Assembly: GCA_012862575.1 (NCBI GenBank)
Contig: BLSF01000057.1
Span: forward strand, 62,001 to 126,000
Direction: 5' to 3'
Length of the DNA: 64,000 nt
Origin: Parietichytrium sp. I65-24A
Lineage: Eukaryota > Sar > Bigyra > Thraustochytrida > Thraustochytriidae
Shown here: positions 48,310-52,806 of the stretch, piece after piece
Position numbering within the stretch: the stretch's first letter is position 1
Layout of the letters: every line of letters starts with the position of its first letter
Program-made: the position numbers and the translations under genes
The notes under the pieces: generated by a model
Databases searched by the model: none
Told to the model about the DNA's origin: nothing
What the model saw: the letters and a program-made list of their open reading frames with translations, nothing else

Positions 48310-51300
48310 ATGGACGTCCCGCTTAGCAAAGCCGTGATCGGCGGTTTTACAAAGTCAACAAATTTTGAGGATCGCTTGAAGCTGGAGAAGAAAGCGTCCA
48401 ATTTGTTTTTTAATTCGTCGTCAAAGGAGAGCACGGCCGGCAGCTCGAAAAGCATAGGGGTGCAGTCAATCGCAGAAAAGGATGACGAGGACATTTGGAG
48501 GGAGCACAGCTCGCAAAATTTTTCGCAACCCATGTTTCTGAGGAGGATGGGCACTAACAAATCCAAGTCGTCTCTGCGGGGCCAGGGAATGAAGCGACAG
48601 TCGACCATGTCCATGCTGAGAAGCGTGTCGAGAAAATACCTGTTTGGAGAAGATGCTCAAAGTCAAGAAGAAGGTGAAGACGAGGATGATACGGAGCGAA
48701 TGACCGAGATGGACCGCCTTGGCTTGTTCCAGAGGGATGCAAAACTGCCATGGTACATAATTCACCCACAGAATCAGCACAAAATCCGCTGGGACATGTT
48801 CATTAGTGGGTTGATCCTATATTCTGTTGTCTTAATCCCTTTTCGTATAGGGTTCGCTCAGGAGGCGACGGGGTTCTCGTTTTATTTTGATTGGCTTGTA
48901 GATGGGTTCTTTCTTATGGACTTGCTTCTCTCGTTTTTCACCTCCTTTTGGGCGAACGATGAACTTGTGGACAGCTTATCGCAAATTGTAACATCATACC
49001 TACGAACGTGGTTCACTGTGGACTTTGTATCCATCATACCCATTGAGCTGTTTCTAGCTTCGAGTGAGGAAAGCAATGTGGCGCTTTCTTCACTCAAGCT
49101 AGTAAAATTTTTCCGTCTCATCCGCCTTATCAAGCTGGTTCGGCTACTAAAGCTCAGAAAAGTCGGGGTGAGCCTGGAGAGCGCTATCAATATAAATCCC
49201 GCCCTGCAACGACTTTTAAAGCTGCTTCTGAACATTATTTTTATTGCACACTTGCAGAGCTGCATGTGGTATTTTCTAAGCACACTGGTAGAGTCAAATG
49301 ACAACTGGGTGTCTGCAGCAGGTCTTTACGATGCGAGTGTCTCCACACAATATTTGAGCTCTCTCTACTGGACGGTGGCCACGATGATGGCGGTAGGGTA
49401 CGGAGATATTCATGCCGTAAACGACATCGAAAAAGTGTACTCCATTTTGGTGCAAGTGACTGGAGCAACGTCATTTGGCTTTATTATTGCAAACATTGCC
49501 GCCTTCTTGGAGACATTCGACCCAAGAGCTTCAGCATACAAAGCTCGAATTGATCGTCTGAAGCAATACATGCGGGACCGTGGACTCCCTAGAAAGTTAC
49601 AAAGGCGGGTGAAGCGGTATTACGACTACCTACTCTCGAAGGAGTCAATTTTTGATGACTCCACTATCCTCGCTCAACTCCCAAGCCACTTAATGGAGAC
49701 GATCGTGCTGCATGTGCACGGTGAGAAAGCTAAGCAAATCGACTGGTTATGCAATGAAGACTCTTCGTTCGTCGCCTATATAATGGCAAGGTCAAGAGTG
49801 ATGCTCGCACTTTCTGGAGAGGTTATTTGCGAGCAGGACTCGGTTGGCTTGGACTTTTATATGATTCTTCACGGTAAAGTAGAAGCAATCACTATTGAGC
49901 GGTCTGAACCCGTTGTGCCGTCATTTACCTCTCAAAACTCATATCCGGGTGACTTGGCTGGTGAAGCAGGAAACCCTCGGAAGGTGTCAGTGTCGAGCCC
50001 GAAGTCCGGTTCGTTACTTTACCTGAAAAGAGACTCTGCCGCTACTTTAGAAGAAAGCAAAAATCCCGAGAGCAAGCCGCAAGGCAACGGCGAAACTCCA
50101 TCAAGCCCATCCGCCGGGCCTTCTTCCTCTGGGCTGCGAAGAGGCAGTGTTGGTAGCCTTGGTTCGTCGGTTAGCTTGAGCCAAAATTCCTTTTCTCATG
50201 CCGTCGTCTGTGGACTATACAACCAGGGGTCCAATTTTGGAGAGATTGGAGTAATTCGCTCCCAACCACATAGTGTAACTTTCCGCGCAAATCGCACCTG
50301 CGATTTAATGTCCATTGCGAAGGAACACATGGACTACGCTATCTATATGTTTCCATCAAGCGCTTTGCGATTTAGAAAGAGGTGCGATACGCATGCAGAT
50401 CTTCTCGAGCTGAGCATGAAAGCTCCAACAGAATACTTTCCTGACACTGACAGGCGAATTAAGTCCACGGTCACTGTGGACGGGTGCAAGCATCAGCCCG
50501 CCAAAGTTGTGGAACCTAAACTCGGCCGAATGATTCTAAGTACGATGATTGCACATGATGGATTGGGCCGTTTCCGGTCTCAAGCGCAAAGAGAGAAGAC
50601 CAAAACTATGCTCAAGCAGGTTCCCTCAGATGTAACCTTGGTTCGCAGCTCTGTGAAAGTAAGGAGGGCAACCTTGACGGACGAAAAGGCTCTCAAATTG
50701 CCGAGTCCAAAGGCGAAGGGGAAAAATTCCACCAAAGTCAACCCTGAGCAAGGCAGGCAGCGCAATAAATTGAAGAGGTCGCAGACCATCAACACCGTCG
50801 TTGTCCGTGACGGGATTGAGGTGGAAGAGGTGGAAATGGAAGAAGATGATATACTAAAGTTACTGTGGGTCATTCCTCCTTCCCACCCGCTCAAAGTTCG
50901 CTGGGAGATGCTTCTGGGTGTCTTGATTGTGTACTCGGTCCTCATTGTTCCATTCCGCGTGGGCTTCGACCGCCCCTCGGAAGGAGGGTGGGAAATTTTC
51001 GACACTTGTGTTGACATCCTTTTCGGATTGGATATTCTCTTAACATTCCGGTCTGGATATGAATCTTCAGACGAAGATATCTGCGTCGTGGCTCCGGTGC
51101 TCATCGCAAAGCATTATCTTCGCGGCTGGTTCCTAGTTGACTTTGTTAGTACATTTCCGTTTGACAAGGTGGTTCAAGTGACGTTGAACGTGAGCGATAG
51201 CGACGCACTGCAGTCTTTTCGTCTGGTCCGGATTCTTCGCATGGCAAGGCTGCTCAAACTTTTTCGAGTGTTCAAGCTGAAAAAGATCTTTGAGACCCTG

Positions 51301-52806
51301 GACACTGACATTCTGGAGTTTGCAGGGATCTTCAAGCTGGTGACGCTTTTCCTGCAAATCAGTTTTGTTGCTCACATGTTTGCCTGTTTTTTCTTCTTCT
51401 CGGCCTCCAACAGCGAAGATTATCGCAATATGTGGTATATAAAGGCAGGTTTTTCTCCGGATTCAGACCAAGATGTGGCGAGTAAATACATTTCGAGTCT
51501 TTACTGGAGTTTTACAAGTATGACCACCGTTGGCTACGGAGACATCTCCCCTACAACGAACGAGGAGAGATTGTATGCTATTTTCATCATGATCATGGGC
51601 GCAACCATCTTCGGTTACGTTGTTGGATCCATCGCCTCGTTGATCCAGTCCCTAGATCTTTCGATGGCCCTGTACAAAGGTAAAATGTCTGACCTTGCTT
51701 CATTCTTGAGCGAGCAAGGCGTCCCTCGGGCGCTCCGCAAGGAGTGCACAGCATGTTATTCGTACTCGCTTTCTCTGAAGAGCGTGTTCGACGAGCGAGC
51801 GTTGTTGGAAGCCCTGTCACCAAGTCTTAGACACGAGACATTGATTTTCATCCATCAGAACGCAGTTGATGCAATTCCCATCTTCAAAGACCAGACGGCA
51901 ACATTCATCGCAGACCTACTTCAAATTATGACTCCACAGCTCTCTCTTCCCAATACATTTATCGTCCGTGCGGGCGAGATTGGAAGTCTCATGTTTTTCA
52001 TAGTCAATGGCGATGTAACAGTGTATGAAGGGGACTGGCCAGAGCCGGAGGAGAGCGGATCGATAGTCTTTCAAAAGAGCAAGATCTCAAAGATGAAGAC
52101 TGGCAATTTTTTTGGGCACGAGTCCGTTCTCACAGGAAGCCGCTCCAATGTGACGGCTATGTCTATTAGAATGTCGCAGCTTTATATTCTCTCGAAGGCG
52201 GCAATTGGCAATATTGTGGACTCAAACCCTTCGTTTGCTGTCTTGCTACAAGGGGCGCTTAGGTACGCTGTGAAGAAACAAGACATCCAATTTGGTCGGT
52301 ACGACGATCCTCGTAACAAGCGCAAGAAGCTATGGAGTGTTGTCCAAGACAGGTTTGGGGATATATTAAACTTGTCGCCTCAGAGAATGAAAAAGCTCTC
52401 AGGCGAGGCAACGAGCTCGAAGAAGCTTGAAGAACTTATTAGTACTATTTTAGGACAGAAAATCAGCAGCCCGCTCAGCCCCGGCCAGCCTTCAGGGAAG
52501 TTCACGCTTGCGAACACCATTTCCAAATTCGAGTCGAAAAACGCAAAGGAGTCTGGGCATAGCTCGGGCTTTCTTGGCACTGGATTTGGAAAGAAGAAGT
52601 CCAGCAAGAATCTCCCCACTGACAAGCCAACTGAACGTCTAAGCATACGTGAGGACCTTCGCGAGAGTCCAAAGGCCGCAGCAGCGCAACATCGTTCCCT
52701 ATTCGACGATTCGGACTCAATTCTCTCCATCGGTCCAGCCAAAAGCTCAGGCACTTCCTCTCAAGCCTCTGGTTCTACGCACGATGATGCTGCCACCAAA
52801 AGTTGA
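48310..52806 (+). CDS. Two-repeat voltage-gated K+ channel with two CNBD modules (KCNH/CNG-like)
   Basis: A 1498-aa protein from the first ATG (MDVPLSKAV). It contains two complete channel units in one chain. Unit 1: S1-S3 from ~residue 155, an S4 with a basic residue at every third position (KFFRLIRLIKLVRLLK), S5, filter VGYGD with Gly363-Tyr-Gly365, S6 and C-linker (RGLPRKLQRRVKRYYDYL), then CNBD1 from ~485 with Gly-Glu at 644-645 and a ~100-residue Ser-rich insertion at ~533-634. Unit 2: S1 from ~865, S4 (RLVRILRMARLLKLFRVFK), filter VGYGD with Gly1075-Tyr-Gly1077, S6, C-linker, CNBD2 around 1200-1320. Both filters are K+-type. Cassettes of both CNBDs lack the key cAMP-contact Arg. Two chains would make the four-unit pore (inference). 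Ends in a Ser/Lys-rich tail. One open frame with no intron. Confidence 0.95.
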   Translation: MDVPLSKAVIGGFTKSTNFEDRLKLEKKASNLFFNSSSKESTAGSSKSIGVQSIAEKDDEDIWREHSSQNFSQPMFLRRMGTNKSKSSLRGQGMKRQSTMSMLRSVSRKYLFGEDAQSQEEGEDEDDTERMTEMDRLGLFQRDAKLPWYIIHPQNQHKIRWDMFISGLILYSVVLIPFRIGFAQEATGFSFYFDWLVDGFFLMDLLLSFFTSFWANDELVDSLSQIVTSYLRTWFTVDFVSIIPIELFLASSEESNVALSSLKLVKFFRLIRLIKLVRLLKLRKVGVSLESAININPALQRLLKLLLNIIFIAHLQSCMWYFLSTLVESNDNWVSAAGLYDASVSTQYLSSLYWTVATMMAVGYGDIHAVNDIEKVYSILVQVTGATSFGFIIANIAAFLETFDPRASAYKARIDRLKQYMRDRGLPRKLQRRVKRYYDYLLSKESIFDDSTILAQLPSHLMETIVLHVHGEKAKQIDWLCNEDSSFVAYIMARSRVMLALSGEVICEQDSVGLDFYMILHGKVEAITIERSEPVVPSFTSQNSYPGDLAGEAGNPRKVSVSSPKSGSLLYLKRDSAATLEESKNPESKPQGNGETPSSPSAGPSSSGLRRGSVGSLGSSVSLSQNSFSHAVVCGLYNQGSNFGEIGVIRSQPHSVTFRANRTCDLMSIAKEHMDYAIYMFPSSALRFRKRCDTHADLLELSMKAPTEYFPDTDRRIKSTVTVDGCKHQPAKVVEPKLGRMILSTMIAHDGLGRFRSQAQREKTKTMLKQVPSDVTLVRSSVKVRRATLTDEKALKLPSPKAKGKNSTKVNPEQGRQRNKLKRSQTINTVVVRDGIEVEEVEMEEDDILKLLWVIPPSHPLKVRWEMLLGVLIVYSVLIVPFRVGFDRPSEGGWEIFDTCVDILFGLDILLTFRSGYESSDEDICVVAPVLIAKHYLRGWFLVDFVSTFPFDKVVQVTLNVSDSDALQSFRLVRILRMARLLKLFRVFKLKKIFETLDTDILEFAGIFKLVTLFLQISFVAHMFACFFFFSASNSEDYRNMWYIKAGFSPDSDQDVASKYISSLYWSFTSMTTVGYGDISPTTNEERLYAIFIMIMGATIFGYVVGSIASLIQSLDLSMALYKGKMSDLASFLSEQGVPRALRKECTACYSYSLSLKSVFDERALLEALSPSLRHETLIFIHQNAVDAIPIFKDQTATFIADLLQIMTPQLSLPNTFIVRAGEIGSLMFFIVNGDVTVYEGDWPEPEESGSIVFQKSKISKMKTGNFFGHESVLTGSRSNVTAMSIRMSQLYILSKAAIGNIVDSNPSFAVLLQGALRYAVKKQDIQFGRYDDPRNKRKKLWSVVQDRFGDILNLSPQRMKKLSGEATSSKKLEELISTILGQKISSPLSPGQPSGKFTLANTISKFESKNAKESGHSSGFLGTGFGKKKSSKNLPTDKPTERLSIREDLRESPKAAAAQHRSLFDDSDSILSIGPAKSSGTSSQASGSTHDDAATKS

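Follow-up and report, generated by a model that had tools for sequence, protein, structure and literature searches.

Oomycetes and dinoflagellates were reported in 2020 to have two-repeat tandem CNBD channels (PMC7576140). The clades of that report come from Aphanomyces invadans, Phytophthora infestans and Prorocentrum minimum; labyrinthulomycetes, brown algae and diatoms are among the groups in which it identified no tandem channels. Its authors expect the oomycete channels to be nucleotide-gated, given that neither the C-linkers nor the CNBDs are shortened. Four-repeat CNBD channels (CNGK) are described there from metazoans and choanoflagellates, and a second paper places the four-repeat CNGK, or tetraKCNG, in animal sperm (PMC4749565).

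The gene described here lies in the window, by which we mean the whole 64,000-nucleotide stretch of DNA that was analysed. By description, it resembles the published two-repeat channels in having two 6TM-CNBD repeats per chain that are about 30% identical, with TVGYG-type filters and a Lys/Arg-rich S4 in both repeats; unlike them, by description, it has lost key residues of the unit 2 nucleotide pocket, and the CNBD of its unit 1 is split by an insert (PMC7576140). With CNGK/tetraKCNG it shares tandem 6TM-CNBD repeats with K+ filters, but it has two repeats where those channels have four. The initial annotation had set the two-repeat form apart from the normally single-unit channels; as an architecture it is not new, given the 2020 report of the CNBD tandem (PMC7576140). 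Judged from its sequence, the window gene is a further, well-formed example of a rare, already known channel design.

The two-repeat frame in the window

A single open frame at 48310-52806 on the plus strand (C57:110310-114803 of genome assembly G000) translates into 1498 residues followed by one terminal stop, with no internal stops; its stop-to-stop length is 1510 codons, and the GC content of the window is about 0.5. A Pfam scan of the whole protein at E values up to 1 gave two stretches of Ion_trans (E 1.9e-55), two of Ion_trans_2 and three of cNMP_binding. In a genome-wide scan, both Ion_trans matches were above the cut-off (116.8 and 88.1 bits), as was the CNBD of unit 2 (33.6 bits, cut-off 27.5); the CNBD of unit 1 scored 24.4 bits, below it.

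The transmembrane part of unit 1, S1 to S6, was delimited by Pfam and a structural model to residues 159-403 (48784-49518), with S4 at residues 263-284 and the filter AVGYGD at residues 361-366, in which Ala stands where Thr is usual. It is followed by the C-linker and the first CNBD strands (residues 404-527, 49519-49890; model and structure comparison) and by a first candidate phosphate-binding half located by profile (residues 547-575, 49948-50034). A Ser-rich insert within the CNBD (residues 592-629, 50083-50196) is modelled at low confidence and is probably disordered, and beyond it lie a second candidate phosphate-binding half and the next helix, recognised by profile and phmmer (residues 640-678, 50227-50343). 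An inter-unit linker with a coding-like score and no stop (residues 716-850, 50455-50859) leads to unit 2, whose transmembrane part occupies residues 863-1115 (50896-51654; Pfam and model), with S4 at residues 971-992 and the filter TVGYGD at residues 1073-1078. The C-linker and CNBD of unit 2, with the pocket FGHESVLTGSRSNV, span residues 1116-1303 (51655-52218; Pfam and model). All of these features lie on the plus strand. The initial annotation had described two full units within one frame, each with a basic S4 and with filters at residues 363-365 and 1075-1077. This description was borne out: there are 1498 codons without a stop and two Ion_trans matches, both units have the order 6TM, C-linker and CNBD, the GYG residues stand at these positions, and the compared S4 segment holds nine Lys/Arg in each unit. 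The units have also clearly diverged, as had been stated, being 31-32% identical.

Relatives of the two units and their nucleotide pockets

AlphaFold models of the units were made from 14-row alignments that combined the two window units with 12 bacterial channels, and structure matches less than 1 Z apart were counted as ties. The model of unit 2 (mean pLDDT 76.1) matched SthK 7rtj (Z 24.1, rmsd 17.1, 397 aligned) and HCN3 8io0 (Z 23.8, rmsd 14.5, 432 aligned), and its C-linker/CNBD part alone matched HCN2 and HCN4 (Z 21.6-22.8, rmsd 2.1-2.5). The model of unit 1 (mean pLDDT 61.5) matched HCN1 5u6p (Z 22.1, rmsd 18.7, 428 aligned), and its S1 to S6 part matched GORK 9khe (Z 21.5, rmsd 3.4, 243 aligned). 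How the voltage sensor packs against the pore and the CNBD in the models is tentative, because the whole-unit rmsd values are high (14-20 Å). Among solved structures, the best sequence match of the whole chain was HCN1, through unit 2 (E 1.3e-48), and that of unit 1 was HCN4 (E 8.7e-46). HCN, SthK and the plant channels AKT, SKOR and GORK are like each window unit in fold and sequence, but carry one unit per chain instead of two.

KCNH channels have an N-terminal PAS (eag) domain and a CNBD occupied by an intrinsic ligand. Scanning the full-length protein with Pfam to E 1 turned up no PAS family, and KCNH channels ranked lower in the lists of PDB relatives than HCN, SthK and the plant channels; the KCNH label of the initial annotation was therefore not retained. 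The units also differ from HCN channels as PMC7576140 describes them: the HCN filter is CIGYG, in contrast to AVGYG and TVGYG here, and metazoan and choanoflagellate HCN carry Ser or Thr for the basic residue in mid S4. By eye, S4 of both window units has Lys or Arg at every third residue, so that the mid-S4 Ser/Thr of HCN is absent. A search of a viral contig collection gave 22 pattern matches, none of which was a relative. A genome contig collection gave at least 593 pattern matches and at least 510 relatives, the best 80 of which were all bacterial by their titles; the best 12 bacterial relatives of these at least 510 had one filter each.

In the canonical CNBD pocket, Glu and Arg have the roles known from HCN2. 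In the pocket of unit 2, FGHESVLTGSRSNV, His replaces the canonical Glu and Ser-Asn replaces the Arg-Thr pair, and with these residues lost, unit 2 probably does not confer nucleotide gating. The pocket of unit 1 is less simple. A CNBD profile built here aligned to it twice, at residues 513-581 (16.9 bits) and at residues 638-690 (36.5 bits). At the aligned pocket positions, the first candidate half has Arg, with Asp instead of Glu; the second has Glu and has lost Arg (His). The unit 1 model rests on an alignment that used the first half and therefore cannot choose between the two. The view that the pocket is lost in both units was dropped on finding that unit 1 has two candidate halves, one of which retains Arg. 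From the sequence, unit 1 may take part in nucleotide gating, through either of its two candidate pocket halves. The canonical pocket is retained in the single-unit channels C47s and C93s of the same genome.

Two readings take the frame for something other than one continuous channel gene, and both were weighed against its coding signal, scored against the codon usage of nine further long frames in the window. The first holds that two neighbouring channel genes, separately transcribed and translated, share one frame by chance, which would suit units that are merely 31-32% identical and the nine in-frame ATG codons at residues 667-867. The 135 codons of the linker, however, hold no in-frame stop, whereas 2-9 stops interrupt every other reading frame, and they score 0.23 bits per codon in frame, against values below zero in the other five frames, 0.10-0.16 in five channel-domain stretches, and -0.16 to 0.06 in all frames of five control stretches between long ORFs. 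The linker thus looks at least as coding as the units. Between residues 530 and 870, no donor-like GT[AG]AG[CT] site was found, and there is one acceptor-like site, at 50621. The DNA gave no sign of mis-joined genes or of an internal stop between the units, two of the outcomes that the initial annotation had named as refuting its one-gene claim. Together with the 1498 codons without a stop and the same tandem design published from other protists (PMC7576140), these data make two separate genes very unlikely. The second reading takes the unit 1 insert (about residues 530-640) for a retained intron or an assembly error, with an ordinary working CNBD once it is removed. The insert is Ser-rich, its codon score of 0.03 bits per codon makes it the least certain stretch of the frame, and phmmer aligned the stretch after it to the HCN4 pocket. 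Against this, it is open in frame for more than 100 codons and lacks a GT[AG]AG[CT] donor-like site, and residues 531-634 by themselves matched the CNBD profile at 8.3 bits, compared with a best score of -0.1 among 200 shuffles (127 of 200 scored). We regard an intron or assembly error as unlikely. As read from the DNA, 48310-52806 is most probably one gene for a CNBD-type K+ channel with two tandem repeats, a design published in 2020.

Multi-repeat channels and other genes of the same genome

The genome assembly G000 (42.5 Mb, 172 contigs) gave 34 match rows for the window protein, its own row included. Four uninterrupted frames were each read as four 6TM-CNBD units: C5 (L001:42-7646, 2534 codons, or 2573 in one match row), C18 (L002:1222 onward and L021, 2758 codons), C47 (L003:1255-8643, 2462 codons) and C1 (L004:856-7863, 2335 codons). 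A unit profile built from both units of the window gene together with nine single-unit frames matched seven stretches in each of C5, C47 and C1 and five in C18, with the grouping into four units each and the unit boundaries set by hand; in part of the units, the first two of C18 among them, the match was confined to the pore and what follows it. Pfam stretches in C5, C18, C47 and C1, respectively, numbered 4, 3, 3 and 2 for Ion_trans, 3, 4, 4 and 4 for Ion_trans_2, and 4, 1, 1 and 1 for cNMP_binding, with the last codons of C18 left out of the scan. From these counts, several repeats have diverged beyond the reach of Pfam. A G[YF]G filter is present in every repeat of C18, C47 and C1, and in C5 the third repeat has AVVIGDT at the K+ filter position. 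An RGS domain lies at the C-terminal end of C18 (E 4.2e-12) and of C47 (E 8.2e-15). No N bases were found in the checked stretches of the four-repeat frames, which covered all but the last part of C18, L021.

Among the four-repeat proteins, blastp gave an alignment of more than 800 residues in all six pairs (20-27% identity), in differing registers; C18 1181-2224, for example, aligns with C47 1148-2152. These genes have the same repeat number as CNGK. Among the titles and abstract openings listed from the open-licence literature, there was no report of a four-repeat CNBD channel outside animals and choanoflagellates, and none of a stramenopile four-repeat CNBD channel or of an RGS domain on one. 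The four-repeat genes are the more unusual part of this genome, more so than the two-repeat gene.

Several other loci were observed. L014 (C2), L017 (C48) and L019 (C9) are related single-unit CNBD channels, joined at 100/100 in the 30- and 40-row trees described below, that have lost the K+ filter and retained the canonical nucleotide pocket. A 732-aa frame at L107:1019-3217 on the minus strand (C40), which may extend beyond an intron, holds two 6TM units with a TLEDWTD pore in each, and looks, we presume, like a bacterial Nav or EukCat channel. A 764-aa frame at L106:1022-3316 on the plus strand (C64) has two Ion_trans matches and no K+ filter, and is presumably TPC-like. An open frame of 5583 codons at C66:8562-22499 gave four matches to one part of the PfaA profile, which we take to be the ketosynthase, and by appearance may be a modular polyketide synthase; PfaA itself had no match above the cut-off in G000 (13 below). 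No chlorophyll-binding proteins were found in the G000 search. The elicitin search gave no match in G000 and was also silent in every control genome, so that absence from G000 is not shown. The 18S 3' ends in L024 and L025 both contain GAAGGTGAAGTCGTAACAAGG, which we take to be an oomycete-adapted ITS primer; the string did not occur in the papers listed by a literature search. A non-photosynthetic stramenopile is a guess at the source. In L024, at a contig end (C16), the 3' end of the 18S rRNA gene is preceded by a retroelement-like stretch, presumably of Copia type, and the junction is possibly an assembly join.

Origin of the repeats and proposed assembly of the channel

Units 1 and 2 were sisters in a 30-row tree (88/80) and in a 40-row tree (94/67), starred in neither. 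C5s and C36s, which lack the CNBD, and C15s, which lacks S1-S3, were left out of both trees; L016, which has an internal stop codon, was excluded from the unit alignment, and two match rows at C7:751539-752279 were left out. In a 17-row tree without four-repeat rows, comprising ten core-set rows from G000 along with C15s and six bacterial rows, the two units were not sisters, being joined in 55% of 200 bootstrap trees, and unit 1 stood with C11a at 44/27. The bacterial outgroup was drawn from the 12 best relatives, ten in the 40-row tree and six in the 17-row tree. The bacteria did not fall on one side of a branch, with two and one rows, respectively, on the wrong side, and the placement of the root is therefore unsure. 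Ten two-row clade tests were run on the 17-row tree, nine of them with an answer (all but unit 2 with C47s). C11b and C15s were rejected as partners of unit 1 or unit 2 (p 0.016-0.037). Pairings with C93s or C47s for unit 1, and with C93s or C11a for unit 2, were not rejected (p 0.08-0.49). Because the units are sisters in two of the three trees and not in the 17-row tree, internal duplication and fusion of two genes both stay candidates for the origin of the tandem, as far as sequence comparison goes. The stem joining the units is short (0.07-0.12) beside terminal branches near 1, a pattern consistent with an old event; the initial annotation had likewise called the fusion not recent.

The initial annotation had further proposed the two-repeat form as an intermediate architecture. 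An evolutionary step towards, or half of, the four-repeat channels of the same genome would share with them the 6TM-CNBD unit common to both kinds, and blastp does align window units with single four-repeat repeats (C5 534-995 with unit 2, E 3.3e-38). However, a clade of units 1 and 2 with the sixteen four-repeat units cost 29.8 log units and was rejected at p-AU 0.0069, for a group picked after seeing the tree and with long branches in play. In the 40-row tree, a starred set (96/94) unites units 1 and 2 with three single-unit channels, C93s, C11a and C11b, and in the 30-row tree the four-repeat units form one side of a branch without units 1 and 2, at just 42/77. With four-repeat channels present in the same genome and the joint clade rejected, we consider an intermediate position of the two-repeat gene extremely improbable. 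The four-repeat units did not form one branch side in the 40-row tree (3 changes), where they came together in 8% of the 200 bootstrap trees. Of C18 and C47, the third repeats pair in both trees (98/96 in the 30-row and 99/96 in the 40-row), the fourth repeats likewise (92/93 and 98/90), with a long-branch flag, and the second repeats pair in the 40-row tree (96/69) and not in the 30-row tree; the first repeats pair in neither. Since the third, fourth and partly the second repeats pair, the sequences fit a common multi-repeat ancestor of C18 and C47, not proven for each repeat.

For the two-repeat gene, read as one tandem channel, we propose that two chains would assemble with units 1 and 2 alternating around one K+-selective pore, in whose filter AVGYG and TVGYG would each occur twice. 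A linker roughly 135-170 residues long would run from the cytosolic end of unit 1 to where unit 2 begins, also in the cytosol. Voltage would be sensed by both strongly charged S4 segments, and cyclic nucleotides would probably not gate the channel via unit 2 but could do so via unit 1.

For the genome as a whole, we put forward, at even odds, that one protist genome contains CNBD K+ channels with one, two and four repeats side by side, the two- and four-repeat kinds being of separate origin, and that two of its four-repeat channels, ending in RGS, are K+ channels linked directly to signalling by heterotrimeric G proteins, in a lineage other than the CNGK of animals and choanoflagellates. The RGS domain would make one protein both a pseudo-tetrameric K+ channel and a regulator of G proteins. 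The loss of the nucleotide pocket in one repeat argues against presuming nucleotide gating for all such channels, and the four-repeat genes would be natural concatemers for testing unit-by-unit specialisation in filters, S4 charge and pockets. If the proposal is true, chaining of CNBD units happened repeatedly, and four-repeat K+ channels, two of them with RGS, exist beyond animals and choanoflagellates.
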